64,000 nt of DNA. It comes from an uncultured Bacteroidales bacterium. Lineage in GTDB: Bacteria > Bacteroidota > Bacteroidia > Bacteroidales > Bacteroidaceae. Position numbers and translations under genes: made by a program. Below, piece by piece: positions 1 to 64,000 of the stretch (its first letter is position 1; the number at the start of each line of letters is the position of its first letter). The notes beneath the pieces were generated by a model. It saw only the letters and a list, made by a program, of their open reading frames with translations. It was not told where the DNA came from and searched no databases. The stretch is taken from positions 1 through 64,000 of the forward strand of contig CACZJU010000003.1 in the NCBI GenBank assembly GCA_902781515.1, in the 5' to 3' direction.

Positions 1-342
1 CCAATATAAAGATTCCCGTGCTTCTTTAAGAGCAATAAAACTTTTGGACTTGAAATCTGCTTTGCTAATGGCGTTACATGCTTCAGCATTGTTGGCACCA
101 ATGCTCGTGCCCGCACGAAGCAATTGGTTGCAGAGTACAGCGACTGACTGCAAATGAAGTGGAATGGAAGAAGGCTGATGGAAGATGGAAGATGTCTTCT
201 GTCCAGACTTACGTTGCCTCAACTCCTTCTTATAATTCTCATGCTCCACAGCTGCTTGGCTCAGCAAGTAATCATTAAGTTTGATTACTCGGTCGCCTAA
301 GGCTAGACACTTCGCTTGTATCGCGTCGGAAATCTCGCTCAT
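1..342 (-). CDS. Four-helix-bundle protein, partial (3' end beyond window)
   Basis: An open frame runs leftward from ATG at 342 to the window edge (114 residues, no stop seen). Its second half contains NQLLRAGTSIGANNAEA and then SKADFKSKSFIALKEARES, the signature of the small four-helix-bundle family related to proteins encoded in 23S rRNA intervening sequences (PF05635). Members are about 115-130 residues, so only the last helix should be missing. The biochemical role of the family is unknown. In Bacteroidales such genes often sit in surface-polysaccharide loci, which fits the upxY-like and ugd genes transcribed in the same direction just upstream. Odd feature: residues about 50-57, in the loop before the conserved helix, are encoded by a 7-bp tandem repeat (174-194) and look like an in-frame insertion. 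Family call secure; role unknown. Confidence 0.8.
   Translation of the reverse strand, partial: MSEISDAIQAKCLALGDRVIKLNDYLLSQAAVEHENYKKELRQRKSGQKTSSIFHQPSSIPLHLQSVAVLCNQLLRAGTSIGANNAEACNAISKADFKSKSFIALKEARESLYW
174..194. repeat. 7-bp micro-tandem repeat inside a coding region
   Basis: Three consecutive 7-bp units (GCTGATG, then GAAGATG twice), with degenerate units on either side. The repeat lies in frame inside the four-helix-bundle gene. Confidence 0.7.
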
Positions 343-349
343 AATGGAA

Positions 350-377
350 GAGGTTAGATGTAAGATGGTTGATGTTA
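350..377. repeat. 7-bp micro-tandem repeat between genes
   Basis: Four 7-bp units (GAGGTTA, GATGTAA, GATGGTT, GATGTTA) fill the gap between the four-helix-bundle start and the stop of the next gene upstream. Confidence 0.65.
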
Positions 378-851
378 GCGACGGCGAATGCCATATCGTT
401 TTTTCTGTTTGGTTGAGAAGATGTCTGAGGTCTCGAGGAGTTCGAAGATTCCGTTGCGGTCTTCATCGGTCAGAAATCCGAAGAATTCACCTTGCTTGAG
501 TCGTTCAACAGGTATAGAGAATAATTCGCCACAGTCAACGAAACTATTATAATCAAGAAACTCAGGATAGTTTTCCTGTTTCAACTCGTACTGAGCAGAG
601 AGATATTCTACGGAATACTGTGCCTTAGGGTTGAGTTTGGTATTTACTAGTACTGATCCAAAACACAGGGCTTGTTCATGGTCTACTCCAATAACCACAA
701 GTCGTTTGGGCTTTTCGGTTCGCCCATTTTTAAAGACAAGGCCATCGGCCTCAGAAAACATGGTACGAATGAGAGCTCCTACAGCTATCCGTTCGTCGGT
801 GACCTGCCGTTGTTGGCGGAAGTATTCGGCTTGTAACTCCCTTAAATCCAT
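375..851 (-). CDS. Putative PemK/MazF-like toxin partner of a Panacea antitoxin
   Basis: 158 residues, starting inside the preceding gene with a 10-bp overlap, so translation of the two is probably coupled. The middle and end resemble the SH3-like barrel of PemK/MazF endoribonucleases: a KPKRLVVIGVD strand, then GSVLVNTKLN, then SFVDCGELFSIPVERL and a G-F-L-TDED stretch near the end, the order in which this family gives a conserved DC-x-F-x-IP-x-x-L block and a final helix. The N-terminal 45 residues are helical and unassigned. Its place directly after a Panacea-domain gene argues for a toxin-antitoxin pair, although the usual order varies. No catalytic residue was assigned, so the toxin role is inferred. 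It could instead be an accessory protein of the Panacea gene. Confidence 0.5.
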   Translation of the reverse strand: MDLRELQAEYFRQQRQVTDERIAVGALIRTMFSEADGLVFKNGRTEKPKRLVVIGVDHEQALCFGSVLVNTKLNPKAQYSVEYLSAQYELKQENYPEFLDYNSFVDCGELFSIPVERLKQGEFFGFLTDEDRNGIFELLETSDIFSTKQKKRYGIRRR

Positions 852-1429
852 GACAGAGCCTTGCGGTTGATCTGACGTTCCTTAACGACCTGCAGCATAT
901 CCTTGCTAGCTCCACCAGAGGCTGCCATATCATAAAGAGAGATCTTTGTATCTTCTCCAGTCTTCTCTGTCTGACGCTTAGCCTTTAGCCATGCATTATC
1001 ATGAGAAAGCTCAGACAAGTCAAATGACTCAATTTCCTTGCAATGTGTTATCCATTTGTCAAGAATACGGATATTGCTTCGTGACAACTCATCCATATCT
1101 GCTTTAACATCACTTGCTAAACTAACAACTTGATGACCATCACTTTGGCCAAGAGTCAGGTCTGAAGCAAACGCTTTCAAATCATCAGTCACTTCTATTA
1201 CCTTTCCTTCAGCTACTCGCAGTACTTTATATGTCAAAGTTGCTACTGGTCCATGCTTGCGAGCCACAAAGGTATCATACATGATGGGCACGCCATAGAG
1301 GGCAAGATGTTCCTCCTGTGCGAAATACATCACCTTAAAAAGGTGAATATAGTCAATAGCCACCCCCATCTGCTGCAGAATGTATTCTACAACGGCCTTA
1401 ATCTTGTTTATATCATAAGTTTGTTTCAT
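842..1429 (-). CDS. Panacea-domain (DUF4065, SocA/GepA-like) antitoxin
   Basis: 195 residues. The first 100 match the Panacea domain (PF13274): YDINKIKAVVEYILQQMG, then DYIHLFKVMYFAQEEHL, then GVPIMYDTFVARKHGPV, the hallmark pattern of short helices with a conserved F/L-x-K-x-x-YFA-x-x-x-HL motif and a later HGPV. Panacea proteins neutralise many unrelated toxins encoded next to them (established for PanA/PanT pairs). Residues 100-195 form a family-variable, charged helical extension that would be the toxin-facing part by analogy. It is followed with overlap by the PemK/MazF-like ORF. It lies 123 bp downstream of ugd, in the same direction, so it may ride on the polysaccharide operon or use its own promoter. 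Confidence 0.8.
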   Translation of the reverse strand: MKQTYDINKIKAVVEYILQQMGVAIDYIHLFKVMYFAQEEHLALYGVPIMYDTFVARKHGPVATLTYKVLRVAEGKVIEVTDDLKAFASDLTLGQSDGHQVVSLASDVKADMDELSRSNIRILDKWITHCKEIESFDLSELSHDNAWLKAKRQTEKTGEDTKISLYDMAASGGASKDMLQVVKERQINRKALSWI

Positions 1430-1552
1430 ATATTTGACTCGTTATGTAAATGTTATTTCCCATTAAGAATAAGAGCATTTGAGAACTATACCTCATAACT
1501 CTCCATAAACCGTAGTGCCTGAATAACTCGGGGTGTATGGAAGGATAGTTGG

Positions 1553-2875: not shown

Positions 2876-2883
2876 GTTAAGAT

Positions 2884-2955
2884 GGGTTATGGGTTATGGG
2901 TTATGGGTTTACTTTTACGGTTTAGGAGTTTACGGTTTAGGAGGTTAGGGGTTAG
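2884..2955. repeat. 7-bp micro-tandem repeats between upxY-like gene and ugd
   Basis: Starts with GGGTTAT three times and GGGTTTA (2884-2911), followed by a second, less regular set built on GGTTTAG and GGTTAGG. It occupies most of the gap and touches the 3' end of the upxY-like gene. Confidence 0.75.
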
Positions 2956-3644
2956 GAGGGGAGTTCTTCGAGGAAGGCGGGAGAGATGTAGGAAATGGCG
3001 ACGGAGGCCACACCCTGAATGCTCACTACAACACGACGGTCTTTCTTGACGCGACACACTACACCTTCTACTCCCTGGAATACTCCTTCTGTAATGCGAA
3101 CACGTGTTCCTATCTTCTTCGAGAAGTCCTTATCGCCAAGGAACATCACACGATTGTCGGTGATGGAAGCAACACGGATGAAACTCTCCATCTGACGGTC
3201 GGGAACACGGATGATGGTACCTATCAACCCGTTTTGAGGTCGCCACATCATATAACGCAACGGCAGAAGAATACGCTGATGGCGCTTCATGAATGTCAGG
3301 CGTTCCTCAGTGGAACGGATGAAGATGAGGTTGTTTACTGCTGGTTCCAATACCAGTTTCTGCTTTCCATCAACATTAACACGATGGTGCGTTAGGGGAA
3401 GGAAGTTCTGCACCTGATGTTGGTCGAGAAACTCTTTGATTGCCATTAAACGCTCGGGGCGTCCGTGGGCAATACGCATTGGAAACCATTGTTTTAGGTA
3501 ATCGGGAACGTCTGAGTCGAAAATAATATTGGGGGACACTGCACCATCAACTTTTTGTGCAGCGGGCATCGCCATTTCCCCAATAGACGATAGCTCATTT
3601 CCTTGCCCTGATAATCCAAAGGCGGCGTTCTCGGAAGTTATCAC
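2952..3644 (-). CDS. UpxY-family transcription antiterminator (NusG-like)
   Basis: 230 residues. A NusG-type NGN domain spans about residues 50-150 (WFPMRIAHGRPERLMAIKEF, then VNNLIFIRSTEERL), and a KOW motif follows at about 175-210 (GTRVRITEGVFQGVEGVV). UpxY proteins travel with RNA polymerase and let it read through long capsule operons in Bacteroides (established for the family). About 45 residues ahead of the NGN domain are low in conservation. Being first in the left-hand gene set, immediately before ugd, it marks the head of a surface-polysaccharide locus. No UpxZ-like inhibitor gene follows, unlike the classical B. fragilis arrangement. A -7 box on the minus strand at 3674-3681 fits its promoter. 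Confidence 0.88.
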   Translation of the reverse strand: MITSENAAFGLSGQGNELSSIGEMAMPAAQKVDGAVSPNIIFDSDVPDYLKQWFPMRIAHGRPERLMAIKEFLDQHQVQNFLPLTHHRVNVDGKQKLVLEPAVNNLIFIRSTEERLTFMKRHQRILLPLRYMMWRPQNGLIGTIIRVPDRQMESFIRVASITDNRVMFLGDKDFSKKIGTRVRITEGVFQGVEGVVCRVKKDRRVVVSIQGVASVAISYISPAFLEELPS

Positions 3645-7198: not shown

Positions 7199-7220
7199 AT
7201 CGCGACAAATTTACGAAATA

Positions 7221-7248
7221 ATTCTTAATTCTTAATTCTTAATTCTTA
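7221..7248. repeat. 7-bp micro-tandem repeat (ATTCTTA x4)
   Basis: Four perfect copies of ATTCTTA between the divergent VTC and frr genes, just upstream of the frr -7 box. Confidence 0.85.
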
Positions 7249-7257
7249 ATTTATTTG

Positions 7258-7265
7258 TATTTTTG
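7258..7265 (+). promoter_or_regulatory. -7 promoter box of frr-rsgA
   Basis: TATTTTTG matches TAnnTTTG and lies 26 bp before the frr ATG. The region where a -33 TTTG should lie is taken up by the ATTCTTA repeats, so only the -7 box is supported. Confidence 0.55.
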
Positions 7266-12033: not shown

Positions 12034-12085
12034 ATACAATTAAATTAAAAAGTAATAATTAAAAATTAAAAAATGAGTTAAAAGT

Positions 12086-24379: not shown

Positions 24380-24521
24380 TCACAACCGTTTTCCCGCCAC
24401 GGATGTAAACGCCCTTATTCAATTTGACAATTTGACTATTTACAATTTTACGGCCTGATAAGTCATACACCTCATTCTCTGAATTTCTCATTTTCTCATT
24501 TTCAACTTCTCCGATTCCATC
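24371..24521. repeat. C-terminal tail repeat, copy 1
   Basis: About 151 bp encoding the linker and tail of the 918-residue lyase-like protein. It is nearly the same as 52763-52914 (about 14 differences by eye), which ends an unrelated gene. Contains 8-bp repeats CAATTTGA and TTTCTCAT. Confidence 0.85.
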
Positions 24522-30040: not shown

Positions 30041-32695
30041 TTATTTAACAATGAATTTTTTTCCGTTCTTGATATACAATCCCTTCGGGAGCACAGAGGG
30101 CACAGAGGAGAAAGAGGACATAGAGATGCGACGACCACTCAGGTCATACACAGCCTCATTTCTCGTTTTCTCATTTTCTGAATTTCTCATTTTCTCGATT
30201 GCGGTGTACTTGTTTGTGCTCAAACGCCAGATATACTGAGGTTCGCTACTTGTTTCAATGAGGTTGTAAGGAGACTTCCAGTTTACCTTGTTGCTCCAAT
30301 ATTTACCATCGCTGTCGCGTCGTATTGCAAAGGTTTCGCTGTCGGGTTCTTCCTTCACGAGTGTAAAGCTGGGCATATCATCTAAGATTTCAGTCTTTAC
30401 GATGTAACCGTCGTTTGACATATAGCCTTCGCTCGTTGTAATATTCACACTTTTTGTACCCTCTATAGGAGTGAAAGTATAGGTCCATGAATACTGGTCC
30501 TCACGGGTGTTGTTTCTCTCAATATCCTTGGCAATACCCTCGACATTGGTAACATCTGCATAGAAGTAGTTGCCGTTGCCCTGATTCTTCTTCACCAAAT
30601 AGGTGTCGGTGCCGGCGATTTGCAGTGCGAACTCGCCCTCAGGCTGTAGTATTACGGGGACACGAGCCAGCATATAATCCTCAACAGCTTTCTGTACTAT
30701 CACTACCATAGCGTCAACCATGCCCTGAGTGAGTGTTGGGTCGCCCTCACGCTCAATGTAAGCACGAGCCTCGGTAAGAACATTATTAAGAGCCGTACGG
30801 GCCTCTTCGGGATACTGACCAGGAACTGTTCCTGCAATAGTGGTGGTCAATAGTTGTTCTGCAGCCTCTACCTCAGCCTTCAGCACTGTGCAGTCACCAG
30901 TAGCATAGGGGTTGATGTAGACAAGCCCCGATTTCTTCGCATCCTCTTCAGTCAGGGCTTCTTCATCGGTCCTGTGAGTTACGGCGGTAAGATTTAGAAT
31001 CTGAGTACCGGCACTGGAGTTACGATTTGTGGTATAGCAGTCCACTTCAAAGAATAGGCGGTCGCCTTCCTTTAAATAAGCATATAAGGCCGTTTTAACG
31101 GGCTTTTTACCACCTTCGCCATCATTAGCCACAGAGCCATACTGGGCAGAAAGCACTGCATCCTCAGTTTTTGCTACTTCTGCATCACCGTAGATATGGA
31201 ACCAACGCACGTATAGGGGATTCTCAAGTTTAGGATTAGGATTGGGTCGATAGAGCGTGAGATCCAAGCGATGAACGCCTTCCTCTATTGCAGTAAACAT
31301 GATGCCAGGAGCACGGTTGGTGAGGGGGTGAAGTTCACCTCCATCGGTGATGTAGAACCATTCGTTACTACCCTTGTACCATGCCACTTTACCAGACGTA
31401 TTGCTTGTGTCGTGGTTTTCCAGTTTCTCGAATGTACCTGTTCCGGTAACACGACCATAGAAACCCCAAGGAGCATCATCGTTTGCATCCATAGCCTCTG
31501 AGTTATTGGTCACCACATATTTACCTTCCTCGTCGGTTTCATATGAGAACAGACGGAAATTACCTTCAGCAGACAAATCAAACAGAATCACCGATTCCGC
31601 CAGCTTCTGCCAAGCCTCTTCGAGTTGTTCAAGATATTGGTCGCCATTGGTACTGTTGATAGTACCGTTGTCGAGCCAACCATAGTATTGTGACAAAAGA
31701 TTTGAGAACTCCGTCCAATCCTTTACAGGAGCATTACCAGGAGCCGTACCCGGATGGATTTCGCTCTGCATCTTATCGAAATATTCGTTCAGTTTGTCCA
31801 TAATCACGCCTATGACACCCTTATCGTAGGGGTCAGCATAATTCTCTTCGGCAGAGGCGGTAGCTTCGTCAACAGACACAACCTCCAGTTCACGATAGAA
31901 CGAACGGGGATAGTAGTCGCGCGGCCAGTTCGAGGGTGTGAGCCCTGCGTAGCTTACCTCCATAGCCACCTTGTCGCCAGCCTTGGCGTGGAAGGCAAAG
32001 CTGAACTCGCTGGCCTCCTGTGCCGTGTAACGCTGTTCGCCACCGTCGGCCAATCGGAAATCAGTGACACCATCTATGTATTCACCACCCTCACCGAATG
32101 GGAAGGTGAAACCGAGATTAACGGTAGGTGCCACTTGATTACTTCCTGCAGGACGGAAACGCGGAACCACCTCTATAGCCTTCAGGTTGGCACCATCCTG
32201 ACGGATTACACTACCAACAACACGATAGTAACCATCGTCAGGAGCCGTGAACGTCACAGTTGCTGTGTATGACTGGTTTCCGCACAGCTCAAAAGCATTG
32301 TCCAATTGAGGCAAGCGGCTCACGTACACAAACTTATTATTAGCATCCGTGCGCGTGGGATTTGTCCATTCTGTGTCGTACCAAGCTTTGCGAATGTCTT
32401 CAGAAGCAGGCCAGGTGAATTCACCACTTATCTCCACATCTTCGAGATTATTAAGGAGACTAACACCACCAACACGTTCCGGTTGATAGAGGTCCACATA
32501 GTTTACTGTGCTTTTCTCGTCAAATGTTGTAAACTTGCTATATTCACCTGTTGAGCAAGCAAACTTTTCGAACGACCATACCGACGTACCGCCCTGGGCA
32601 AATTCATCATCGGTCATTTCCACCAAGTTCCAAGTTTGGGCCGATGTCGACAGCACTGCCATCAAGCCAACCACAATTGTGTAGAGTTTTTTCAT
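30041..32695 (-). CDS. Secreted tailed protein with RICIN-like and FIVAR-like segments
   Basis: 884 residues with a signal peptide (MKKLYTIVVGLMAVLSTSA). N-terminal beta-rich domains contain ATVTFTAPDDGYYRVVG and SFAFHAKAGDKVAMEVSYAG, typical of galactose-binding-like modules. A helical FIVAR-like stretch lies at about 620-700 (LKAEVEAAEQLL and ARTALNNVLTEARAYI), and a beta-trefoil-like segment follows (FALQIAGTDTYLVKKNQGN, then DGKYWSN). The tail is AVYDLSGRRI...KGLYIKNGKKF. No catalytic motif is visible. Its stop lies 61 bp before the fusion enzyme and the operon continues with two lyase-type genes, so a role in holding glycan at the cell surface is plausible. The linker is coded by 8- and 9-bp repeats (30080-30115 and 30162-30193). 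Confidence 0.75.
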   Translation of the reverse strand: MKKLYTIVVGLMAVLSTSAQTWNLVEMTDDEFAQGGTSVWSFEKFACSTGEYSKFTTFDEKSTVNYVDLYQPERVGGVSLLNNLEDVEISGEFTWPASEDIRKAWYDTEWTNPTRTDANNKFVYVSRLPQLDNAFELCGNQSYTATVTFTAPDDGYYRVVGSVIRQDGANLKAIEVVPRFRPAGSNQVAPTVNLGFTFPFGEGGEYIDGVTDFRLADGGEQRYTAQEASEFSFAFHAKAGDKVAMEVSYAGLTPSNWPRDYYPRSFYRELEVVSVDEATASAEENYADPYDKGVIGVIMDKLNEYFDKMQSEIHPGTAPGNAPVKDWTEFSNLLSQYYGWLDNGTINSTNGDQYLEQLEEAWQKLAESVILFDLSAEGNFRLFSYETDEEGKYVVTNNSEAMDANDDAPWGFYGRVTGTGTFEKLENHDTSNTSGKVAWYKGSNEWFYITDGGELHPLTNRAPGIMFTAIEEGVHRLDLTLYRPNPNPKLENPLYVRWFHIYGDAEVAKTEDAVLSAQYGSVANDGEGGKKPVKTALYAYLKEGDRLFFEVDCYTTNRNSSAGTQILNLTAVTHRTDEEALTEEDAKKSGLVYINPYATGDCTVLKAEVEAAEQLLTTTIAGTVPGQYPEEARTALNNVLTEARAYIEREGDPTLTQGMVDAMVVIVQKAVEDYMLARVPVILQPEGEFALQIAGTDTYLVKKNQGNGNYFYADVTNVEGIAKDIERNNTREDQYSWTYTFTPIEGTKSVNITTSEGYMSNDGYIVKTEILDDMPSFTLVKEEPDSETFAIRRDSDGKYWSNKVNWKSPYNLIETSSEPQYIWRLSTNKYTAIEKMRNSENEKTRNEAVYDLSGRRISMSSFSSVPSVLPKGLYIKNGKKFIVK
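30162..30193. repeat. 8-bp micro-tandem repeat in a C-terminal linker
   Basis: Four 8-bp units of the CTCATTTT type (CTCGTTTT, CTCATTTT, CTGAATTT, CTCATTTT), coding in frame for the KMRNSENEKTRNE linker on the minus strand. Confidence 0.7.
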
Positions 32696-41248: not shown

Positions 41249-41270
41249 GGACTTTAAACTCCACAACTGA

Positions 41271-41298
41271 CTCTAAACTCTAAACGTTAAACTCTAAA
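41271..41298. repeat. 7-bp micro-tandem repeat (CTCTAAA type)
   Basis: Units CTCTAAA, CTCTAAA, CGTTAAA, CTCTAAA just upstream of the 39-residue ORF. Confidence 0.8.
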
Positions 41299-41311
41299 CT
41301 TTACAAATGTC

Positions 41312-41431
41312 ATGAAACCAGAAGCAAAGAAACAATTGATTAAGTTCTTGTGGAAACTGGCGACCGCCATCATAGCCGCATTCGGCGGCGCAGGAGCAGT
41401 GCAGGCCAGCACAGCCTTCGGCCTCCTTTAG
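41312..41431 (+). CDS. Small hydrophobic protein, possibly smalltalk family
   Basis: 39 residues: a basic start MKPEAKKQLIKFLWKL, then ATAIIAAFGGAGAVQAST and the end AFGLL. Its place right after an HU-like gene and its size and K-rich, then hydrophobic layout match the tiny smalltalk proteins annotated in Prevotella-like genomes. Function unknown. ATG 41312 is the only good start. It could be a small membrane peptide. An 8-bp repeat and a strong terminator follow. Confidence 0.6.
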   Translation: MKPEAKKQLIKFLWKLATAIIAAFGGAGAVQASTAFGLL

Positions 41432-41433
41432 AA

Positions 41434-41465
41434 AATGAAAGAATGAAGGAATGAAAGAATGAAAA
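41434..41465. repeat. 8-bp micro-tandem repeat (AATGAAAG x4)
   Basis: AATGAAAG, AATGAAGG, AATGAAAG, AATGAAAA, immediately after the 39-residue ORF. Confidence 0.8.
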
Positions 41466-41499
41466 AGCTCCCGGCACCAAAGGTGGTGCGGGGAGCTTT
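41464..41499. terminator. Bidirectional terminator between the small ORF and the GH127-like gene
   Basis: Long near-perfect hairpin centred on CACC-AAA-GGTG with AAAGCTCC/GGAGCTTT at its base. Serves the two convergent genes. Confidence 0.85.
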
Positions 41500-41515: not shown

Positions 41516-43267
41516 TTACTTCTTCCAATAGACGACGTAACGACAATGCTGCATATTGTAAAAAGGCTCAAGGGGGAGAGAACCAATTGGCACATCAGGA
41601 TGTTTGCCGTAGTCGAAGGTGTAGTAATCGTTATACTTCTTGGGGTCGCTAAAAGGGTTATCTACCTTTCCGAGTCGTCCTGCCATCACGATAGGACCAC
41701 GCAAAAGGGCAACATGAGCGGGATCGTCTTTCGTAGGTTCTTCACGGAGTGTCATCCCAAACTCGACTTCTACATGCTTGGCGTTCTTTACCAATACATA
41801 GCCATCTTTGTCCGCTTTTACCTTACGACCGTTAATCTTCATATATGTAGCCCAGTAGGGATAACGAATTTTGAGGGTTAATGGTTCAGGGTTCATGGTT
41901 AATGGTTTTACCGTGAGGGTGGTCTTGTTACTTTCTGGGAATGTAGTCTCCTGACGGACAATAGTGCCATCCCAGTTTAATTCGGATGGGATGAAGAGAT
42001 TGACATAAAGAGGGCCTCTCCCCCCGCCCTCCCCCATAGGGAGGGAGCTTTTGAAATAGATGCTTGACTGGTATTTGGCATGACTCTCAAAGCCACTGCC
42101 CACGCAACACCAGAAACTGCTGTCGCGGGTAGAGTAAAGTCGGTATCCACCTGTCATTAAGGGTGTAAAGTAGCATACCATCGAGGTAAGGGTATCCTGC
42201 TGCCCCAGGATGTGGTTATAGAGTGCACGCTCGTAGTAGTCGGCTATTTTGCTATCGGGCTGATAGCAGAACAGACGGTCGGCAAGTTTTAGTAGGTTGT
42301 AGGTGCAGCAGTTCTCACCATCGTAACCTGTTAGGTGTTTCGATTGCGATTCAGGTTTAAACAGGTGTTCCTTGTCAGAGACCTCACCAGTGACAAAGGC
42401 ATGGTCGTTGACTAAAGTCCAAAACAGATTCTCCGCAGCATTGCAACTCGTCTTATCCCCAAACAACTCATAGTTCTTGCATTCACCAAGGAGCTTAGGA
42501 ATAAACGTATTTGCATGATTCGTACCCAAGTCGTTATTGCCGGCCTTCAACGGGTCTATCTTATCATTGTGATAAAAGAAGCGAGCCACCAAAAGATAAC
42601 GTTCATCCTTGGTGATGGCATAGAGGTTGTACATGGCTTCATTGAAACCACCAAATTCATTACGTATCATCCTTACTCGCGTTTCCTCACTGAGTGGCTT
42701 CAGCTTGTTGTACGCCCAATTGCCCATACCTTTGGCAACTTCGAGCGCAGTCTCGTTACCACACATGGTATATTGGTCGAGCAGTCCTTGCAGAATTTTA
42801 TGGAGTGTATAGAAAGGTGCCCATACCGATTTGCCTTGTATATTACGGTCAATAAGTCCCTCGCCGTATGCCGAGAGATAGCCCGTGCCATACTGACGCT
42901 GTACCTCTGCCAGTCCTTGAACGATGGAATCGGCCTTTTCTTTCATCTGCAGATATGCCATTGCAGACAACAAATGGCCCGTCGTATGTCCACGAAGGTC
43001 ACAGTCCATCGACTCCCAACCAGCCAAGTGTTGCATCGTCATATAGCCCCCTTCCTTCGAAGAGAATACGCCTGCCGTATTGCGGAAAGAATGTAATAGC
43101 GAGTTGACGGGTATCGATGCTATCCAAGCCGAGTCGCGTTGCATGTTGCGTTGGAAACGCGATGGCAACAATTTGACATCCTTCAGTGCGAACGGCTGAC
43201 AGATCGTCTGTGCTATAGACGATGTCAGAAGGAAGAAGGAACAGAGAAGAATGAATGGGCGTTTCAT
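41516..43267 (-). CDS. GH127-like glycoside hydrolase (DUF1680, beta-L-arabinofuranosidase type)
   Basis: 583 residues with a Sec signal (MKRPFILLCSFFLLTSSIAQ). The family has an alpha/alpha barrel with a zinc site of three cysteines and a glutamate. Visible: LAGWESMDCDLRGHTTGHLLSA, VWAPFYTLHKILQGLLD, YDGENCCTYNLLKLADRLF (Glu and Cys ligands) and FWCCVGSGFESHAKY (the Cys acting as nucleophile in GH127). Expected to release L-arabinofuranose from arabinan or glycoprotein side chains. Two oddities: a 33-bp GC-rich palindrome encodes SLPMGEGGGRGP (42015-42047), and 7-bp repeats encode KPLTMNPEPLTL (41875-41909). Last gene of a five-gene operon. Confidence 0.9.
   Translation of the reverse strand: MKRPFILLCSFFLLTSSIAQTICQPFALKDVKLLPSRFQRNMQRDSAWIASIPVNSLLHSFRNTAGVFSSKEGGYMTMQHLAGWESMDCDLRGHTTGHLLSAMAYLQMKEKADSIVQGLAEVQRQYGTGYLSAYGEGLIDRNIQGKSVWAPFYTLHKILQGLLDQYTMCGNETALEVAKGMGNWAYNKLKPLSEETRVRMIRNEFGGFNEAMYNLYAITKDERYLLVARFFYHNDKIDPLKAGNNDLGTNHANTFIPKLLGECKNYELFGDKTSCNAAENLFWTLVNDHAFVTGEVSDKEHLFKPESQSKHLTGYDGENCCTYNLLKLADRLFCYQPDSKIADYYERALYNHILGQQDTLTSMVCYFTPLMTGGYRLYSTRDSSFWCCVGSGFESHAKYQSSIYFKSSLPMGEGGGRGPLYVNLFIPSELNWDGTIVRQETTFPESNKTTLTVKPLTMNPEPLTLKIRYPYWATYMKINGRKVKADKDGYVLVKNAKHVEVEFGMTLREEPTKDDPAHVALLRGPIVMAGRLGKVDNPFSDPKKYNDYYTFDYGKHPDVPIGSLPLEPFYNMQHCRYVVYWKK
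41875..41909. repeat. 7-bp micro-tandem repeat in the GH127-like gene
   Basis: Units GGGTTAA, TGGTTCA, GGGTTCA, TGGTTAA, TGGTTTT. In frame, encodes KPLTMNPEPLTL on the minus strand. Confidence 0.8.
42015..42047. repeat. 33-bp GC-rich palindromic insert in the GH127-like gene
   Basis: Reads CCTCTC then a run of C, an ATAG turn and GGGAGGGAG. Close in length and layout to 51502-51534. Encodes the SLPMGEGGGRG segment in frame. Confidence 0.7.
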
Positions 43268-43271: not shown

Positions 43272-44564
43272 TTAATGTGGTATTTTGATTTCTATAGGTT
43301 TTACAACACGTTTATAGGTTTTGTCACCATCGAGGATGGCAATGAGCCAAGCGGTAAAGGAACGCTTTGGATTGTCCAATCCGCATTCGTAGGGATAAAC
43401 TTCTAAATTGAGAATTGAAAATTGAGAATTGAAAATTGGCTGGTGCGATGTGGATTTGCGAAGTGGGCCACAGATGACTTCGATGCGGACACCTGTGGGG
43501 GCGGTGATGGTCAACGTCTTACCATCTTCGCTCCATTGAGTCTTGATTTCACCTATCTCTCGCGTTTGCTTGCCGCGTGTCTCAGCATAGCGAGCCTCGG
43601 TCAACTCTGCCATTTCGCGGTCATAATACCAAAAAGCATCGTGCAAATCGCCTGTATACTGCGCATACGGAGCAGCCTTGGGACGTCTCTCAACGCTGAA
43701 GATATCATCCTTAGCTCCATCGCCATCATTAGGTTGGAGGTCAGGATTATAGCGACAGGCTAACCAACCGTCATGTGGATTGACTTTGCGAAGGCTGCCA
43801 TCAGCTTGTAACCGCTGTTCCATAGTCTTTTTGATAAACAGGGCTATGTACTCTGCTGTTTCAGGCATAATCTCAAAATGCCCACTTCCTGCGTCGGCAA
43901 GGAAGGAAATGCAACTATTGGGATACATCATGCGGAAAGCGAGGGCTGGACGTACACGAGCTTCCCACCATTCGTATTCGCCCTCAATCATCAGACCGGG
44001 TATGCCGTCGATATTGCGTGTACGCCCCCACTCCACATTGGCTGTTCCATAACCACAAAGATTGGTGCGTGGGGCATCACCATGAAAACTGATGACACAA
44101 AGAGTACGCTGATTATTCCACGCAGCAAAGTTCCAGGGAAAAGTTGCTTGGGCAGAATGACCAAAGGGAATCACGGGGCAGCGTTCCAACTCCCGATGTC
44201 CACTCTGTCCTGCCAGACCCACCATCATTTCTTCAAAGGTCTGTTGGCAGCCCGTGGAGACATCCCAATTCTGCGAGAACCACGGTGCCACCCACACCAG
44301 GGCAATGTTCATTTCCTGCATTCGCTTCTGGAAAGATGGCATTTTATAAAGCATCTCTTCTGTCATGTTCTGCTGGGCAAGCATTACTGCCTTTACGGTC
44401 TGACAGCCTTCAGGAATCCACAGAAAGGCTGTCGGGGATTTGCCTGTCTCGGCAGATACATAGCCAGTTAGTGCCACCGAGTGTTGGTATATACCGCTTT
44501 TCCCAACGGCTCCAATATTGTCAAGCTGGCATATTAATAATATAAGGAATAAGATGCGTTTCAT
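43272..44564 (-). CDS. Secreted alpha/beta-hydrolase-fold protein, putative esterase
   Basis: 430 residues with a signal peptide (MKRILFLILLICQLDNIGA). The nucleophile motif GHSAQA (residue about 150) follows PVIPF and the oxyanion-type strand WVAPWF. A later GSGHFEIMPET gives a probable catalytic His. No specific family recognised; a carbohydrate esterase fits the operon. The stop is followed after 4 bp by the GH127-like start, and its start overlaps manA by 4 bp. Odd: PIFNSQFSILNLE near the C-terminus is encoded by four 7-bp repeats (43406-43433), which should be an inserted loop. Confidence 0.72.
   Translation of the reverse strand: MKRILFLILLICQLDNIGAVGKSGIYQHSVALTGYVSAETGKSPTAFLWIPEGCQTVKAVMLAQQNMTEEMLYKMPSFQKRMQEMNIALVWVAPWFSQNWDVSTGCQQTFEEMMVGLAGQSGHRELERCPVIPFGHSAQATFPWNFAAWNNQRTLCVISFHGDAPRTNLCGYGTANVEWGRTRNIDGIPGLMIEGEYEWWEARVRPALAFRMMYPNSCISFLADAGSGHFEIMPETAEYIALFIKKTMEQRLQADGSLRKVNPHDGWLACRYNPDLQPNDGDGAKDDIFSVERRPKAAPYAQYTGDLHDAFWYYDREMAELTEARYAETRGKQTREIGEIKTQWSEDGKTLTITAPTGVRIEVICGPLRKSTSHQPIFNSQFSILNLEVYPYECGLDNPKRSFTAWLIAILDGDKTYKRVVKPIEIKIPH
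43406..43433. repeat. 7-bp micro-tandem repeat in the hydrolase gene
   Basis: AATTGAG and AATTGAA alternate for four units, in frame, ahead of the EVYPYECG segment. Confidence 0.85.
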
Positions 44565-52762: not shown

Positions 52763-52914
52763 ATTACTTAATCACAACCGCCTTGCCATTGCGGATGTAA
52801 ACTCCCTTATTCAATTTGACAATTTGACCATTTACAATCTTACGACCTGACAAGTCGTACACCTCATTCTCTGAATTTCTCATTTTCTCATTTTCAATTT
52901 CTCCGATTCCATCG
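52763..52914. repeat. C-terminal tail repeat, copy 2
   Basis: About 152 bp almost identical to 24371-24521 and ending an unrelated protein. Encodes the GEIENEKMRNSENE linker and the VYDLSGRKI...KGVYIRNG tail. Confidence 0.85.
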
Positions 52915-55280: not shown

Positions 55281-55309
55281 GTGCGATACATTAATTATAT
55301 TATTTGCGG

Positions 55310-55317
55310 CAAAAATA
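55310..55317 (-). promoter_or_regulatory. -7 promoter box of the EEP-domain gene
   Basis: Minus-strand TATTTTTG, 29 bp before the ATG at 55280. No -33 element seen. Confidence 0.45.
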
Positions 55318-55335
55318 CTCAAAAATATTTATATA

Positions 55336-55389: not shown

Positions 55390-56088
55390 ATGAAAAAGCT
55401 GGTTGTACTGACAGGTGCTGGCATGAGTGCCGAAAGCGGCATCAGCACTTTCCGCGACAGCGGAGGCTTGTGGGACACCTACAACGTTGAAGACGTGGCA
55501 ACACCAGAGGGTTGGGCACGCAATCCACAACTCGTGACAGAGTTCTACAACACCAGACGACGCGAGTTGCAGAACGTGGAACCCTGCAAGGGACACAAAC
55601 TGTTGGCAGAACTGGAAAAGGACTTCGACGTGCAGATAATCACCCAAAACGTTGACAACCTGCACGAGCGCGCCGGTTCCACGAAGGTATGCCACTTGCA
55701 TGGAGAACTGATGAAAGTGTGCAGCAGTTACGACCCCAATAATCCCCGTTTCATCGAAACTCTTTCACCCGAAAACTGCGAGGTGAAGATTGGCGACAGG
55801 GCAAAGGACGGCAGTCAGTTGCGCCCATTCATCGTATGGTTTGGCGAAGCGGTGCCCAACATTGAGGCGGCAGCGGAAATGTCATCGAAGGCTGACATCT
55901 ACCTTATCATTGGCACCAGTCTGAATGTTTACCCTGCCGCAGGACTCATTCACTATGTGCCAGAAGGCTGTCCGATATACCTCATCGACCCCAAACCTGT
56001 GCAGTGGAACTCTCTTCTGCCTGTTCACCATATCATGAAGGGTGCAAGCGAGGGAATGGAAGAGTTCATACAGAAAATTAAAAATTAA
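55390..56088 (+). CDS. Sirtuin-family NAD-dependent deacylase
   Basis: 232 residues. Sir2 motifs: VVLTGAGMSAESGISTFRDS, ITQNVDNLHERAGS, the catalytic histidine in HLHGEL, IVWFGEAVP and IIGTSLNVYPA. The two CxxC zinc ribbons usual in Sir2 are not found: only a lone VCSSYD-type stretch follows the His. FYNTRR has the Tyr and Arg arrangement typical of class III (desuccinylase-type) sirtuins. The 3' end is coded by 7-bp repeats (56074-56108), giving the KIKN end. Confidence 0.92.
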   Translation: MKKLVVLTGAGMSAESGISTFRDSGGLWDTYNVEDVATPEGWARNPQLVTEFYNTRRRELQNVEPCKGHKLLAELEKDFDVQIITQNVDNLHERAGSTKVCHLHGELMKVCSSYDPNNPRFIETLSPENCEVKIGDRAKDGSQLRPFIVWFGEAVPNIEAAAEMSSKADIYLIIGTSLNVYPAAGLIHYVPEGCPIYLIDPKPVQWNSLLPVHHIMKGASEGMEEFIQKIKN

Positions 56089-56108
56089 GAATTAAGAGTT
56101 AAGAATTA
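56074..56108. repeat. 7-bp micro-tandem repeat at the sirtuin stop
   Basis: AAAATTA, AAAATTA, AGAATTA, AGAGTTA, AGAATTA; the sirtuin stop codon lies inside the second and third units. Confidence 0.8.
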
Positions 56109-56121
56109 AGAAAAAAATATC

Positions 56122-59100
56122 ATGAGAAGAATCGCGCTGGCAGCATTTGCCATTTTTTCAATTTTCAATCTTCAATCTTCAATTTGCTTTGCGCAGACCA
56201 ACGTGACGACGAAGTACATCGAAAACCCCAACTTCGAAGCACGCTTTGCAGGATGGGATAACGCCGGTAGCTTTACGTTCAATACCTCGAAGAACTTTGC
56301 CGGACAAGACGGTATGGTATTCATGGAGAAGTGGGTTTCGAAAGGCAACAGTCTTGGCACGAACACTGGCATGAAGCAGACTCTCGTGGGACTGCCAGCA
56401 GGAACATACACCCTGACCGTCAACGCCCAGAACATACAGCAATCAAGCGAGGTTGCACAAACGGGAGCCTTCATCTTTGCAGGTGACGAACAGACCGAAG
56501 TATCGGCCTACGGACAATACAGCGTTGTATTCACCGTGCTAACTGGTCAGACAGTGATTGGATTTAAGTTGAAGACATGTACTGGAAACTGGGCATGTAT
56601 CGATAACTTCAAACTCTATTCTAATGGAATAGTAAAGGACAGCGTGAATCTCGAACTGCAGAAGCTCATCACAGAGGCTGAAGGCGTGATTGGCGACGGA
56701 GTTACAGCTCCAGCGTTGCAGACTGCCATCGACGACGCAAAAGCCCTGCTGACTGCCGAGGGCGACTATCAGGCAGTGGCAAAGGCATTGGAAAGCGCCA
56801 CTCTGAACTATCGCGTGCAGAACGCCACAGGCACTGCCCCCACAGTCACCACCAATGAATTCATTGCTGCAGGTTCCACAATAGCACTGGGTCGTCTGAC
56901 CGTAAAAGGCACTGCCAGCGAACGTGGTTTCTGCTGGAGCACTGAGCCCGAACCAACTGTCCTCGACAACCGTTCCACCCGCTACTTCTCGAACAATGGC
57001 AACATCTACGTGATGGAGCACATGCAGCCTGCCACCATCTATTACGTTCGTGCCTATGCCATGACCAAGGACTATAAGGTTGGTTATGGTGAAGTGGTGA
57101 AGATGGCTACGCTGCCCAAGGGAAGTGTATCTACATCCTACGAAGACTATAACGGTGGCACAGAGCAGGAGGACTTCCGCATTGAATCCGCTGTGAACGA
57201 GTGTAAGTGGATGTATAACAACCTGACAAACATCCGCGACTTCAACTTACGGGTACACTACGTACCAGGCTCTGGAGCAGGCGGCGGTACGGCAGAATGT
57301 AGCTATGGCGGTTGGATGAACGTAAGTCAAACCACTTCATACCAACAAACTGGTACTATCCTGCATGAAACCAATCATGGTGTGGGTGTAGGAACCACTG
57401 GCGAGTGGTACAACAACTCCAACCTGCGTGCAGAAACCAGTCGTGGAATCTGGCTCGGTCCGCGTGCCAACCAGATGATACGCTTCTTGGAGAACAACAA
57501 CGCTATTTCCGTAACTGGCGACAATACTCACATGTGGGGAACTCCGACCGACCAAGTGAAGTTGGCATACGGCATCAATGGTGCGCACGAAGATGCCTAC
57601 AATCCTGAAAATACATTGTTGTATTACAGCAACATTCTTATCACGCACGCCCTGCATCAGGACGGACTGATTTGCACCTCCAATGTGGGCTTTGCCACTC
57701 CGGCATACGTGTTCAGACAGGATGACAACCAGAAGTATTACATCAAGAATGACGAAGCGGAGTCAACAGGCTATCTGACAATGTCCAGCACAGGTGCACT
57801 GTCAATCAGCACATACGATGCCACCAACGACGATATGTTTGCATGGAACATAACCTACGACCCCAAGACTTCGTACTACATTTTCCGTAATGTCGGCACA
57901 GGACGCTACCTGACATACAGCAGCGGATTCAAGGGCGTAACTCGCACCACGCCCGCATCAACCGACAAGTTCCACCTGCTGCCTGCACGCGCAGCAACAA
58001 AAATGGGCGACTATAATGGCACTGGATATTGGATTGTCTATAACAAGGGAACAAATACCCTGAAACAGAACGGTGCAAAGGCTGCCTCTGCATCCCTCGA
58101 CTTCTCCAACGCTACCACAAACCAGCGCTGGCTGTTCCTGACCGAAGCCGAAAGAAGTGCATACGATACTGCTGCAACCCCCGTAGTGATGCCACAACTG
58201 GAGAAAACGCTTACTGAAGCCAGTGCCATGCTTGACACACCACATAAGGCACAGAAAGAGGGAGGCGACATTACAGCCATCGACAGTGAACTCGGAAACC
58301 TCATCACCACCATCACAGAAGCCAAGAGTGCATACACCACACCAGGCGAGGTGATTACGGCTGCCGACCAACTGAAGGCTGGAATGCTGACTTTCATTGG
58401 CGAAGTGAATGCTACTGACATGAGTAAGCCCTTCGACATCACATTCGCTCTCAACAATCCAGGACTCGACGGAACAAACGGATGGAGCACCGCTGCCACC
58501 AACAACTACTCGTGCGGCGAGTTCTTCGAGCAGACCTTCGACTTCAATCAAAGTACAGCCGAAAAGATGCCCATCGGCACCTTTGAACTGCGTGTACAGG
58601 CCTTCCAGCGTCCAGGCACAGCAGCAAACACCTACAATGCTTTTGTTGTCGAGGAAAAGGACAGTGTGAATGCATTCATATATATAAAGAGCGCCACCAA
58701 CAAGCAACTGATAAAGAACATCTGGGCCGATGCTCAGTCTAAAGCACTGGGTGGAGCCACCTACAACAAAAGCGGCAAGTACATCCCCAACAATATGCTG
58801 GCAGCCAGCAAGTGGTTCGATGCCGGATGGTATGAAAACAGCGTCATGGTCACCCAAACCAGCAAGGCTACGCTGAAGGTGGGCATAAAGGCCACAAAAG
58901 CTCCGACATCCTATTGGACCTGCTTCGACAACTTCCGCCTCTACTACTACGGCAACGTCAGTCAGGACGATATCACAGGCATTGAGGAAATGAGAGTTTC
59001 AGAAAATGAGAAAATGAGAAATGAGGTGTATGACCTGTCAGGTCGTCGTGTCCTCTCACCTCTCACCTCTCACCCCTCACCTCTAAAAAAGGGCCTATAT

Positions 59101-62576: not shown

Positions 62577-62608
62577 CAAAGATACGATTAAGTGAGGATA
62601 AAAGCAAA
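62577..62608 (-). promoter_or_regulatory. Promoter of miaB
   Basis: Minus-strand TTTG (62605-62608), 20-bp gap, TATCTTTG (62577-62584). The same pair recurs 92 bp upstream at 62669-62700. Confidence 0.75.
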
Positions 62609-62780
62609 ATAAAAAGCTCTTCTTTTTTAATTTTGCTTTATCGAGCGTCAGTATCTTAGATCGAAGGTCAAAGATACGATTAAGTGAGGATAAAAGCAAA
62701 ATAAAAAGCTCTTCTTTTTTAATTTTGCTTTATCGAGCGTCAGTATCTTAGACCGAAGGTCAAAGGTACGATTAAGTAAG
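62577..62780. repeat. 92-bp tandem duplication with hairpins
   Basis: Copies 62577-62668 and 62669-62760 differ at one base (T/C) by direct comparison; a third, partial copy of about 20 bp follows. Each copy holds 10-bp arms AAAGCAAAAT/ATTTTGCTTT (62601-62639 in copy 1) and outer arms AAGATAC/GTATCTT, and a minus-strand promoter. Confidence 0.92.
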
Positions 62781-62830
62781 CGAAATGCCAAAAGTTTTTT
62801 AGCATTTCAGAACATATCATAAATAATTCG

Positions 62831-62838
62831 TAACTTTG
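62831..62838 (+). promoter_or_regulatory. -7 promoter box of the HAD gene
   Basis: TAACTTTG, 9 bp before the ATG at 62848. No exact -33 TTTG was found. Confidence 0.45.
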
Positions 62839-62847
62839 CACACAAGT

Positions 62848-63495
62848 ATGAAAAGAGAAAGACCTGAACACATAGCAGCGGCGCTGTTCGACCTGGACGG
62901 AGTGGTTCTGGACACAGAGAGCCAATACACCGAATTCTGGGGTGCTATGGGGCACGAATTCCGTCCCGATGTGCCCGATTTCTGTAAACGCATAAAGGGA
63001 CAGACGCTGAGACAGATTTTCGATGCCTGGATTCACTCGCCAGAGGAACAGGCGGAGGTGACGCGACGGCTCGATTTGTTCGAGGCTCAAATGCAGTATC
63101 CTTATATTAAAGGCGTGTGTGCATACGCGGAAAAGTTGCGCAGCGAAGGCATTCCGACAGCGATAGTCACCAGTTCGAACGTACCAAAGATGGAGAGTGT
63201 GTTCCGAAGCAGACCAGAACTGAGAACAATGTTCGACAGAATACTTACTGCCGAGGATTTCACTGAGAGCAAGCCATCGCCACAATGCTATCTGAGGGCT
63301 GCAGAGGCGTTGAGAGTGGACATAAAGAACTGCGTAGTGTTCGAGGATAGCTTGAACGGACTGCGCTCTGGTCGTGATAGTGGAGCCTACGTGGTTGGAC
63401 TGGCGACATCGAACCCAAGGGAAATAATTGAATTGCTCTGCGACGAGGTGATAGATGATTTTGAGAATGCGTATGAAAGTTGTAATAGACGATAA
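62848..63495 (+). CDS. HAD-superfamily phosphatase (beta-phosphoglucomutase-like)
   Basis: 215 residues from ATG at 62848. HAD motif I FDLDGVVLDTE, motif II TSS, motif III K with SKPSPQCYLRAAE, motif IV FEDSLNG. A cap domain lies between I and II, giving the beta-phosphoglucomutase-like subgroup. Substrate unknown. The 3' end overlaps the pdxB start by 23 bp. Confidence 0.88.
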   Translation: MKRERPEHIAAALFDLDGVVLDTESQYTEFWGAMGHEFRPDVPDFCKRIKGQTLRQIFDAWIHSPEEQAEVTRRLDLFEAQMQYPYIKGVCAYAEKLRSEGIPTAIVTSSNVPKMESVFRSRPELRTMFDRILTAEDFTESKPSPQCYLRAAEALRVDIKNCVVFEDSLNGLRSGRDSGAYVVGLATSNPREIIELLCDEVIDDFENAYESCNRR

Positions 63496-64000
63496 GATTC
63501 CTTTCATTCGCGGCGAAGTGGAAAAGCTGGTCGATGAGGTGGTGTATCTGCCAGGTGCTGCCATAGGTCCGACTCAGGTGAAGGATGCAGATGCGCTTAT
63601 CGTACGCACTCGTACCCCGTGCAATCGTCAGCTATTGGAAGGCAGCAACGTGCGTTTCATTGCTACTGCCACCATTGGCTATGACCATCTTGATACAAAA
63701 TACCTCGATGAAGTCGGCATACAGTGGACGAATTGTCCAGGCTGCAATGCCACCAGCGTGGGACAATATGTGCGCAATGCCCTGTTGGAGGCTGAACGGG
63801 CTGGAATGATACGACTTGGCGAGACGACAGTGGGAATCATTGGTTATGGTCATGTGGGCAAAGCCGTTTACAACGCCCTGCGTCCCTATGTCAAGCGCAT
63901 ACTCCTCAATGACCCTCCGCTTGAGAAAGTTGAGAGTTTAGAGTGTAGAGTTGAGAGTTTTTATTCTTCACTCGAAACATTGCAGGAGGAGTGCGACATC
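63473..64000 (+). CDS. pdxB: 4-phosphoerythronate dehydrogenase, partial (3' end beyond window)
   Basis: 176 residues seen, starting MKVVIDDKIPFIRGEVEKL at 63473 (ATG 63467 also possible). D-2-hydroxyacid dehydrogenase of the vitamin B6 pathway. RTRTPCNRQLL, FIATATIGYDHLD and the NAD-binding GIIGYGHVGKAV are in place. Odd: KVESLECRVESF after NDPPLE is encoded by five 7-bp units (63925-63959). Confidence 0.9.
   Translation, partial: MKVVIDDKIPFIRGEVEKLVDEVVYLPGAAIGPTQVKDADALIVRTRTPCNRQLLEGSNVRFIATATIGYDHLDTKYLDEVGIQWTNCPGCNATSVGQYVRNALLEAERAGMIRLGETTVGIIGYGHVGKAVYNALRPYVKRILLNDPPLEKVESLECRVESFYSSLETLQEECDI
63925..63959. repeat. 7-bp micro-tandem repeat in pdxB
   Basis: GAAAGTT, GAGAGTT, TAGAGTG, TAGAGTT, GAGAGTT, in frame between NDPPLE and the YSSLETL segment. 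Confidence 0.85.

Follow-up and report, generated by a model that had tools for sequence, protein, structure and literature searches.

The window, the 64,000-nucleotide stretch of DNA that was analysed, carries short tandem arrays with units mainly of 7 or 8 bp that lie both between and inside genes, as the original prediction had it. The sites are listed below, with the strand where one is assigned. A search of the window with Rfam returned nothing except one tRNA.

170..194: weak period-7 array ATGGAAG, intergenic
2882..2909: period-7 array ATGGGTT, four copies, separating the minus-strand genes 1553-2875 and 2952-3575
7206..7213, minus strand: promoter -7 box (CAAATTTA; TAAATTTG on the minus strand), presumed, facing the VTC-domain gene 6407-7198
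7219..7254: period-7 array TAATTCT, in which the AATT core recurs five times; it takes up the space between a divergent pair of -7 boxes
7258..7265, plus strand: promoter -7 box TATTTTTG, presumed, facing frr (ribosome recycling factor, 7292-7852)
12046..12074: weak period-7 array, intergenic, close to the tRNA gene 12134-12204
15138-15168 and 15185-15218: two weak period-8 arrays, intergenic, upstream of the CorA-like gene 14208-15134
24476..24503, minus strand: period-8 array (TCTCATTT; sense GAGAAAAT) whose translation, ENEKMRNSENE, is the linker of a C-terminal tail
30159..30187, minus strand: period-8 array in gene 30041-32695, coding the linker ENEKMRNSENE
41270..41300: period-7 array CTCTAAA, intergenic
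41430..41466: period-8 array AATGAAAG, intergenic
41876..41907: period-7 array GGTTAAT, within the GH127-like gene 41516-43267 (minus strand)
43406..43438, minus strand: period-7 array, sense TCAATTN, coding PIFNSQFSILN within gene 43272-44564
52868..52895, minus strand: period-8 array, identical in its letters to that at 24476, in the C-terminal tail linker of gene 52764-55322
56074..56112, plus strand: purine-rich period-7 array AATTAAG, overlapping the stop of the Sir2-like gene 55390-56088
56155..56187, plus strand: pyrimidine-rich period-7 array TTCAATC, coding the core of a likely signal peptide, MRRIALAAFAIFSIFNLQSSICFAQ (judged by eye)
58983..59025, plus strand: period-8 array TGAGAAAA, first C-terminal tail linker of gene 56122-59133
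59049..59086, plus strand: period-7 array CCTCTCA, second C-terminal tail linker of gene 56122-59133
63925..63959: weak period-7 array GAGAGTT/GAGTTTA near the window end, within a gene (coarse gene caller)

The minus-strand gene 1553-2875 belongs to the UDP-glucose/GDP-mannose dehydrogenase family, and degenerate 7/8-bp copies extend from the array beside it (2882-2909) to 2958. The elements at 7206..7213 and 7258..7265, which we take to be -7 boxes from the consensus, stand 44 bp apart, and the array at 56074..56112 ends 9 bp short of the next start (56122). The 8-bp sites at 24476, 30159, 52868 and 58983 code one shared linker of similar C-terminal tails and may be non-independent events.

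In a table of 58 repeats in the window, 13 period-7 sites (one overlapping period-7 row is left out, and the sites at 2882 and 2906 abut) and 8 period-8 sites held at least 3.5 copies, which agrees with the predicted figure of at least 15 sites with about four 7- or 8-bp units; the only other unit length at this copy number was period 9, at a single site (9632). The period-7 sites that had been named were all recovered (2882-2909, 7219-7254, 41270-41300, 43405-43438, 56074-56112, 56155-56187, 59049-59086 and 63925-63959), as were the 8-bp sites (15185-15218, 30155-30196 and 41434-41464). Some sites of the table are weak, with 75-80% matches (164-194, 15185 and 63928). A strict scan of the window (21 lag matches, at most three mismatches) detected six arrays of period 7, two of period 8, four of period 14 and one of period 15, and none of periods 4-6 or 9-13; at the same threshold, 30 local dinucleotide shuffles of the window gave no array. 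Across 864 kb of this genome we found 113 period-7 and 25 period-8 arrays, a density of ∼160 per Mb, and the period spectrum peaks at 7 and 8, arrays of periods 6, 9 and 12, coding or not, occurring at about 2, 12 and 3 per Mb. A 464-kb subset held 59, 14 and 5 arrays of periods 7, 8 and 9, respectively, and none of periods 4-6, while five shuffles of it held none at all. Heptanucleotide tandem arrays thus exceed the expectation from composition, and the zero counts in shuffled controls, the comparison that had been proposed, rule out a composition effect as their source.

The units, originally thought to be unrelated in sequence, belong to a small and partly genome-specific word set. The 113 period-7 arrays are built from 37 words, as opposed to 104.6 expected from 2000 draws of array-free intergenic heptamers (minimum 94), and the top word stands 77-fold above background; TCAATTT-type arrays number 23 against 0.3 expected. 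The commonest words are AAAATTG, AAGAATT, AAAAATT, AATTGAC and AATTATC, and TTAATTC (7221) and AATTAAG (56074) are one word read on opposite strands. For the 7221 array, scoring of 40 among 98 candidates gave at least 40 additional matches elsewhere in the genome. Chains of AATT cores fall into 25 with three copies, 15 with four, 23 with five and one with six. Between genomes the vocabularies overlap: AAAATTG is the top word here and in congener G058, and the leading 8-mer AAAATGAG is common to this genome and G026. Some of the 8-bp words look by eye like the start region ATGAGAAAA; a local origin is suggested in the same way for these 8-mers and not for CCTAGG-type words.

The arrays occupy a few kinds of site. 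Between co-directional genes of this genome, 31% of the 152 gaps of 20-90 bp hold an array, compared with 1% in shuffles, and ∼105 of the 152 have no period-7 run. Array gaps are mostly 25-60 nt long (24 of 32, versus 13 of 54 array-free gaps). Among 44 arrays in co-directional gaps, 26 overlap the upstream stop codon, 11 overlap the next start and 38 either do so or end within 10 nt of it. Stops in all three frames are present in the sense direction in 36 of the 44 and in antisense in 14, the remaining 8 lacking the sense set; against a tiled null of 50% this sense-frame excess has P = 2.6e-5, arrays being treated as independent. The bias holds for arrays clear of the real stop (sense 14/18, antisense 4/18). 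Other arrays lie between promoter boxes that stand back to back at a distance of 43-45 bp, in the cores of signal peptides and in C-terminal linkers. Nearly half of the coding arrays (22 of 45) lie within 100 nt of a called start, positions near starts being approximate since a simple hexamer gene caller was used, and every one of the 22 is rich in pyrimidines when read in sense.

Relatives were examined at the array junctions as had been proposed, with one genome per species, and gain, loss and clean insertion were all seen, so that the refuting condition set beforehand does not apply. The set of 13 junctions compared between this genome and eight congeners covers gaps of up to 200 bp in this genome, at junctions present in four or more genomes and with no more than six unaligned residues at a gene end, and the best of periods 5-11 was taken for each gap. 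Array presence varies at 9 of the 13, and the same gaps in the congeners carry other words, other periods (7 to 10) or no array; the presence of periods 9 and 10 at orthologous positions means that the period is not limited to 7 or 8, as had been assumed. At one junction the array has period 7 in this genome, period 9 in G046, G026 and G038 and period 8 in G014, and no array was called in G021, G028 or G058. At three of the 13 junctions the insertion is clean: one species carries an array where another has a gap no longer than 8 nt; in one example the gap is 43 nt in G014, −1 to 5 nt in seven of the eight other genomes and 17 nt in G001. Words such as CCTAGGNNNN are present at junctions whose array-free orthologs do not contain them. 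At junction C1-1, copies of CCTAGG and TCTAGA are visible in G001 and G058 below the array threshold. In one comparison among sampled loci, no more than 26 of 500 gene pairs had orthologs. Rearrangement scars were rejected as a source of the arrays, 13 of 16 junctions (gaps of up to 200 bp in this genome, two test regions) being flanked by the same gene pair in four or more genomes, this one included.

A divergent promoter illustrates replacement in place. Its units are mostly ATTAAGA in this genome and mostly ATTAGGG in G026, G046 and G058, with the register unchanged and the gap between -7 boxes at 44 in all four. A gap of ∼44 is also kept where there is no array, at one promoter in G058 (44) and G026 (43) and at the 7221 promoter in G026 (43), so that the spacing looks independently constrained and the array behaves as filler.

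Within the genus the distribution is patchy. Counts of one word family (AATT-type) vary irregularly among 61 genomes, the pattern counting overlapping hits and missing other words: G054 has no AATT hit yet carries 21 period-7 arrays per Mb (139 kb). Congener G021 had no array in 119 kb, and in samples of G053, G005 and G001 (9-15 gaps each) arrays fill only 7-11% of the gaps. Among 80 named loci drawn from separate assemblies, 32 contained arrays, one of the 32 being only an A-run. Four genomes of the order (155 kb analysed) yielded one period-7 and one period-8 array, both in G070, together with a period-10 A-run and, as single cases, arrays of period 6 or 12; since an order-wide count covers one word family only and includes very A+T-rich genomes, we make no claim of the junction pattern for the order as a whole.

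Taken together, we favour a lineage-specific mutation process that keeps writing short tandem arrays with units of 7 bp (also 8, and in congeners 9 and 10), which selection then filters, a reading whose prospects we consider evenly balanced. The arrays, their preferred period and their restricted vocabulary are observed directly; comparison of orthologous junctions shows that whole arrays have been gained and that one word has been replaced by another in place. The writing step would be slipped or template-switching DNA synthesis with loops of 7-10 nt, with a word preference and probably re-seeding from existing arrays, and the same slippage would homogenize the copies, giving concerted change of all units. 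Selection would act as a filter and not as the maker, arrays persisting where sequence is free: in co-directional gene gaps, within signal-peptide cores and C-terminal tail linkers, and as filler where back-to-back promoters keep a spacing of ∼44 bp. The orientation that survives at gene ends would mostly be that with stops in all three frames, and near gene starts sense pyrimidine-rich arrays would give mostly hydrophobic codons. The original idea of a process that builds short repeats locally thus keeps its preferred period and its gain, loss and insertion in relatives, and loses its unrelated units and its restriction to periods 7 and 8. Loops of 7-10 nt are too large for MutS recognition. 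Hypermutation through loss of mismatch repair was rejected since MutS is present in this genome: the MutS_V profile has a strong match here and in 9 of the 10 AATT-richest genomes (this one included; G045 has only a weaker one), and 60 of 61 genomes of the genus have some match. Several observations count against the mutation process. Plain slippage of local sequence does not predict the shared vocabulary, some words are missing from array-free orthologs of their junctions, vocabularies overlap between genomes, AATT chains end sharply at five, unlike a slippage tail, and the sense-frame stop excess hints at positive selection.

One alternative is that the arrays are selected functional elements, either three-frame translational insulators before the next start or sites, present in several copies, that are bound by a protein recognizing RNA or DNA, in which case word and reader would evolve together. 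Their overlap with upstream stops and closeness to the next start, the sense-strand bias, the preferred gap length and the concentration of copy number at five AATT cores all speak for it. However, stops are unneeded in signal peptides, in C-terminal linkers or at divergent promoters, and arrays are found there too, many congeners have no array at the same junctions, and about two-thirds of the gaps in this genome manage without a period-7 run; we regard this explanation as rather unlikely.

Less probable is that a dedicated element or enzyme, such as a short-template polymerase or a mobile element, spreads or writes the arrays. It would account for a restricted vocabulary whose favourites partly differ per genome, for words missing from array-free orthologs, for whole-array insertions and for the many further matches to the 7221 array. 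Against it, among the pairs listed from 138 arrays only four separate-locus pairs align over at least 80 nt at 80% identity, for which reason copying of longer elements was also rejected; a flank test that asked for 25 nt or more of alignment beyond the array was not strict enough because flanks contain degenerate repeats, passing 69 of 138, mostly short or of low identity. RVT_1 was found neither in this genome nor in 8 of the 10 AATT-richest of the 61 (this one included), an absence weakened by the incompleteness of these drafts, while 8 of 10 genomes with no AATT-type hit have it, as against 2 of the 10 richest (relatedness not controlled), an association opposite to that expected of a reverse transcriptase writer. 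PF01797, the Y1 transposase associated with REP sequences, had no match at E 0.001 in this genome, whose assembly is 86% complete; a REP/RAYT-type system, which requires it, was set aside, the incompleteness weakening the absence. In one further reading, an unrecognised DNA-writing activity that is neither an RVT_1 reverse transcriptase nor a Y1 transposase would deposit arrays of 7-10 bp words at junctions and promoters, with species-specific favourites and with junctions rewritten instead of inherited; we find this doubtful.

Equally hard to sustain is ordinary neutral slippage duplicating any 7- or 8-mer locally present. It fits the dominance of heptamers in many genomes (PMC4679880, citing a 2007 survey) and the resemblance of some 8-bp words to ATGAGAAAA, but is disfavoured by the restricted vocabulary and the excess of the top word. 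An artefact of composition, assembly or gene calling, although the genomes compared are drafts or metagenome assemblies, is scarcely credible given the empty shuffles, the recurrence in separately assembled loci, the lack of arrays in G021 at 51% G+C (48% in this genome) and the length of the arrays (∼35 bp), shorter than one sequencing read.

Phase-variable microsatellites are tandem repeats in promoters and at gene starts; the arrays resemble them in location and differ by their 7-10 bp units and degenerate copies. A literature search on 7-bp repeats in Prevotella and on short tandem repeats in Bacteroidales found no report, but the claim that the pattern is undescribed in Bacteroidales was too strong. 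In PMC4679880, TAACTGA heptamer direct repeats are reported from Beggiatoaceae, cyanobacteria and five Bacteroidetes including Paludibacter; in a Beggiatoaceae genome they have 2-6 copies, mostly intergenic just before a start codon, and sometimes overlap the upstream stop, with stops in all three forward frames. The arrays here are alike in period 7, junction location, three-frame stops, one favoured word and scattered distribution. The unit itself is not shared: the TAACTGA doublet TAACTGATAACTGA has no exact match in this genome and one (G046) in the 61 genomes, although one array (C6:66207) has 13 of its 14 letters. The arrays also differ in the 37 words used, in the periods of 8-10 bp, in their presence at divergent promoters and within signal peptides and C-terminal linkers, and in the replacement of word and period at orthologous junctions. 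Whereas the G-rich heptamers of Xanthomonas (GGGAATC) and Nostoc are described in PMC4692102, the common words here are A+T-rich with no G-tracts, so that quadruplexes are not expected. The 2007 survey, as cited in PMC4679880 and PMC4692102, covers long simple sequence repeats of 5-11 bp in prokaryotes, and according to the introduction of the former heptamers are the most abundant class in most genomes, a prominence that the arrays share. Its coding repeats, as cited, are mostly of units divisible by three; here 35 of the coding arrays have period 7 and another 10 have period 8, in all 45, more than all arrays of periods 6, 9 and 12 together.

As the two papers cite it, the bacterial preference for heptamer repeats has been an open question at least since the 2007 survey. 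The genus, spanning no array in 119 kb (G021) to the density of this genome, makes origin, turnover and function testable, since the same junctions can be compared with and without an array, with other words and with other periods. The frequent use of different words in one and the same gap by related species points to what may be a fast repeat-writing mutation process. Some of the sequence between genes, in signal peptides and in tail linkers may accordingly be recent repeat filler and not conserved regulatory sequence.

Among sites with at least 3.5 copies, Tandem Repeats Finder detected 13 of period 7, eight of period 8 and a single one of any other unit length in the window. At a strict threshold, six period-7 and two period-8 arrays were called, and none in 30 local dinucleotide shuffles of the window. 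The source genome (2.46 Mb, 86% complete), in which the window spans positions 1–64000 of contig C3, was sampled as the window plus 40 further 20-kb stretches (864 kb). The nearest named relatives identified all come from metagenomes and bear the labels uncultured Bacteroidaceae, Prevotellaceae or Bacteroidales; the titles of many point to ruminants. The first 464 kb of this sample yielded 59 period-7, 14 period-8, five period-9 and two period-10 arrays but none of periods 4–6, and five shuffles of it gave no arrays, which bears out the original prediction that periods 7 and 8 are enriched over shuffled controls. Periods 22 and 23 were over-represented in the 464 kb as well (8 and 12 arrays); the window carries a 23-bp tandem repeat, ACCTATGACGATAGGTTATTATT, in 3.3 copies at 40591–40665. 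Of the 113 period-7 and 25 period-8 arrays that we counted across the 864 kb, 93 lie between genes and 45 within coding sequence, yet 88% of the DNA is called as coding.

The repeat units had been taken to be unrelated from site to site. This is not the case: with both strands and any rotation merged, the 113 period-7 arrays reduce to 37 words, compared with a mean of 104.6 (minimum 94) in 2000 draws of array-free intergenic heptamers. The top word, AAAATTG (TCAATTT), occurs in 23 arrays against 0.3 expected, and AAGAATT (TTAATTC), the word of the five-core array at 7221 (7219–7254), in 10 against 0.29; at least 40 other places in the same genome match the 7221 array. Chains of AATT cores at spacing 7 were found with three (25), four (15), five (23) or six (1) copies, so that, the one six-copy case apart, they reach five copies and then break off. 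Favoured words vary among genomes of the genus (designated G0xx), with overlap. AATTATG accounts for 7 of the 13 period-7 arrays of G053 and for 3 of the 12 of G046, and the 9-bp word AAGACCTAT three of eight in G053 and two of eight in G058, where AAAATTG again leads (5 of 10 period-7 arrays); AAAATGAG is the leading 8-bp word in the genome under study (8/25) and in G026 (7/12).

Among 152 gaps of 20–90 bp between co-directional genes, period-7 runs occurred in 30.9% and period-8 runs in 7.2%, compared with ∼1% of shuffled gaps, while periods 3–6 were at background. Overlap with the upstream stop codon was seen in 26 of 44 such gap arrays and overlap with the next start in 11; 38 end within 10 nt of that start or overlap it. 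Stops in all three frames were present on the sense strand of 36 arrays and on the antisense strand of 14, where tiling predicts 50% and 43%; the sense bias persisted in arrays clear of the real stop (14/18 versus 4/18). That the arrays are translational insulators at gene junctions, a reading on which this bias bears, we consider a live alternative, though less likely than the slippage-like origin favoured below.

Orthologous junctions were compared between species, using two 10-kb regions and eight congeners whose longer matches are ∼68–86% identical. At 9 of the 13 junctions found in at least four genomes, array presence differs; one junction has an array in all five genomes and three have none called. 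At three junctions, one species carries an array where another has no more than 8 nt, an insertion-like contrast. The gain or loss and clean insertion anticipated for relatives were thus both encountered. At one junction, G014 has 43 nt of TTAATTC-type array, against −1 nt in the genome under study and 2–17 nt in seven others. At another, the period is 7 in the genome under study, 9 in G046, G026 and G038, and 8 in G014, and no array was called in G021, G028 or G058. In 61 genomes of the genus, this one included, a pattern of four AATT cores gives between 0 and 179 matches per genome (overlapping ones counted), and ten genomes have none. G021 is array-poor, not array-free, since a 119-kb sample held no array but the whole genome has five matches and one of its divergent promoters contains an array. 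The pattern occurs in 111 of 198 genomes of the order, 1 to 305 times, which is no more than a hint of wider occurrence.

Arrays also occupy divergent promoters, recognized by the boxes CAAANNTA and TANNTTTG, which we take to be the −7 promoter consensus. Gaps between facing-away boxes peak at 43–45 bp (13 of 76 pairs, two being copies of one duplicated unit), whereas none of 28 convergent or 41 tandem pairs has this gap. A period-7 array fills 9 of the 13, versus 8 of 25 pairs at other gaps of 30–80 bp. At 7221, boxes at 7206–7213 and 7258–7265 lie 44 bp apart between a VTC-domain gene and frr. This gap is also 44 in G046 and G014, with differing words, and 43 without an array in G026; it is 75 with arrays of other words in G058, G001 and the metagenomic locus L043, and 65 in locus L044 and G021. 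At promoter 220659/220788 the gap is 44 in all five genomes, while the units are mostly ATTAAGA in the genome under study, mostly ATTAGGG in register in G026, G046 and G058, and AATTATC-type in G001. At promoter 88854/88957, the genome under study and G014 share one array, that of G001 is nearly the same, and those of G046 and G038 are built from other words; the gap is 44–45 in the genomes with arrays. The array is absent from G058, G026 and G021 (gaps 44, 43 and 34). Since gaps near 44 can be kept even without an array, the spacing looks constrained, with the array acting as filler that can be exchanged. Facing-away gaps in the genome sample cluster near 24, 44, 54, 65 and 75 bp and ortholog gaps fall at 34, 44, 65 and 75–76 bp, a pattern suggestive of helical phasing. 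A 92-bp unit in tandem at 62577–62777 (2.2 copies, 98%) has two copies with a divergent −7 box pair at a gap of 43 bp without a heptamer array; because stretches like CGATTAAG...CGAAGGTCAAA also occur in a G026/G046 junction, it may be a dispersed element.

Of the 45 coding arrays, 22 are no more than 100 nt from a called start, all of these pyrimidine-rich in the sense strand; 16 are in gene middles and seven near gene ends. The pyrimidine-rich array 56155–56187 codes for the core of a likely signal peptide. Those at 24476, 30159, 52868, 58983 and 59049 code for linkers of a short C-terminal tail. A common tail (like YDLSGR...KGVYI.NGK..IK) is present in proteins encoded at 15663–22391, 24372–27158, 30041–32695, 52764–55322 and 56122–59133; among six proteins scanned, the model of the T9SS type A sorting domain (TIGR04183, NCBIfam) picks up only the last, at 17.9 bits, under the cut-off of 23. 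Purine-rich arrays followed ∼25–55 bp on by pyrimidine-rich ones are frequent (loci L101, L106, L095, L062, L081 and L090; window 56074–56187). Such pairs could let the RNA fold back, and in the window pair the start codon falls within the loop of the possible fold.

TAACTGA heptamers of Beggiatoaceae, cyanobacteria and five Bacteroidetes (PMC4679880) resemble our arrays, in the sections consulted, in where they sit relative to stop and start codons and in carrying stops in three frames. The G-rich heptamers of Xanthomonas and Nostoc usually have the same flanking genes in two species and vary in length and sequence (PMC4692102, sections consulted), and PMC4060949 surveys such repeats broadly. 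The consulted sections of these three papers contain no description of word and period change at orthologous junctions, of array-filled 44-bp divergent promoters, or of arrays that encode the cores of signal peptides and the linkers of C-terminal tails. We found no other report of the pattern in the open-licence literature on heptamer or short tandem repeats in Bacteroidetes, Bacteroidales, Prevotella and Flavobacteria.

Concerning candidate enzymes, MutS is present in the genome under study, and no Y1 transposase was found in its 86% complete assembly. No reverse transcriptase domain was found in this genome or in seven others of the ten richest in AATT-type matches (8/10 in all). With relatedness uncontrolled, RVT_1 shows an inverse association with this pattern: it occurs in 8 of the 10 genomes that lack AATT-type matches, versus 2 of the ten richest. 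Against a slippage-like origin stand the stop at five cores, the surplus of arrays with three-frame stops and the words common to several genomes. We nevertheless favour it, because whole arrays are gained, are replaced in place, use few words and land in free sequence. Recurrent slippage-like synthesis with loops of 7–10 nt, preferring certain words, would write the arrays; their copies would then be homogenised, and selection would act as a filter, leaving arrays where the sequence is free.
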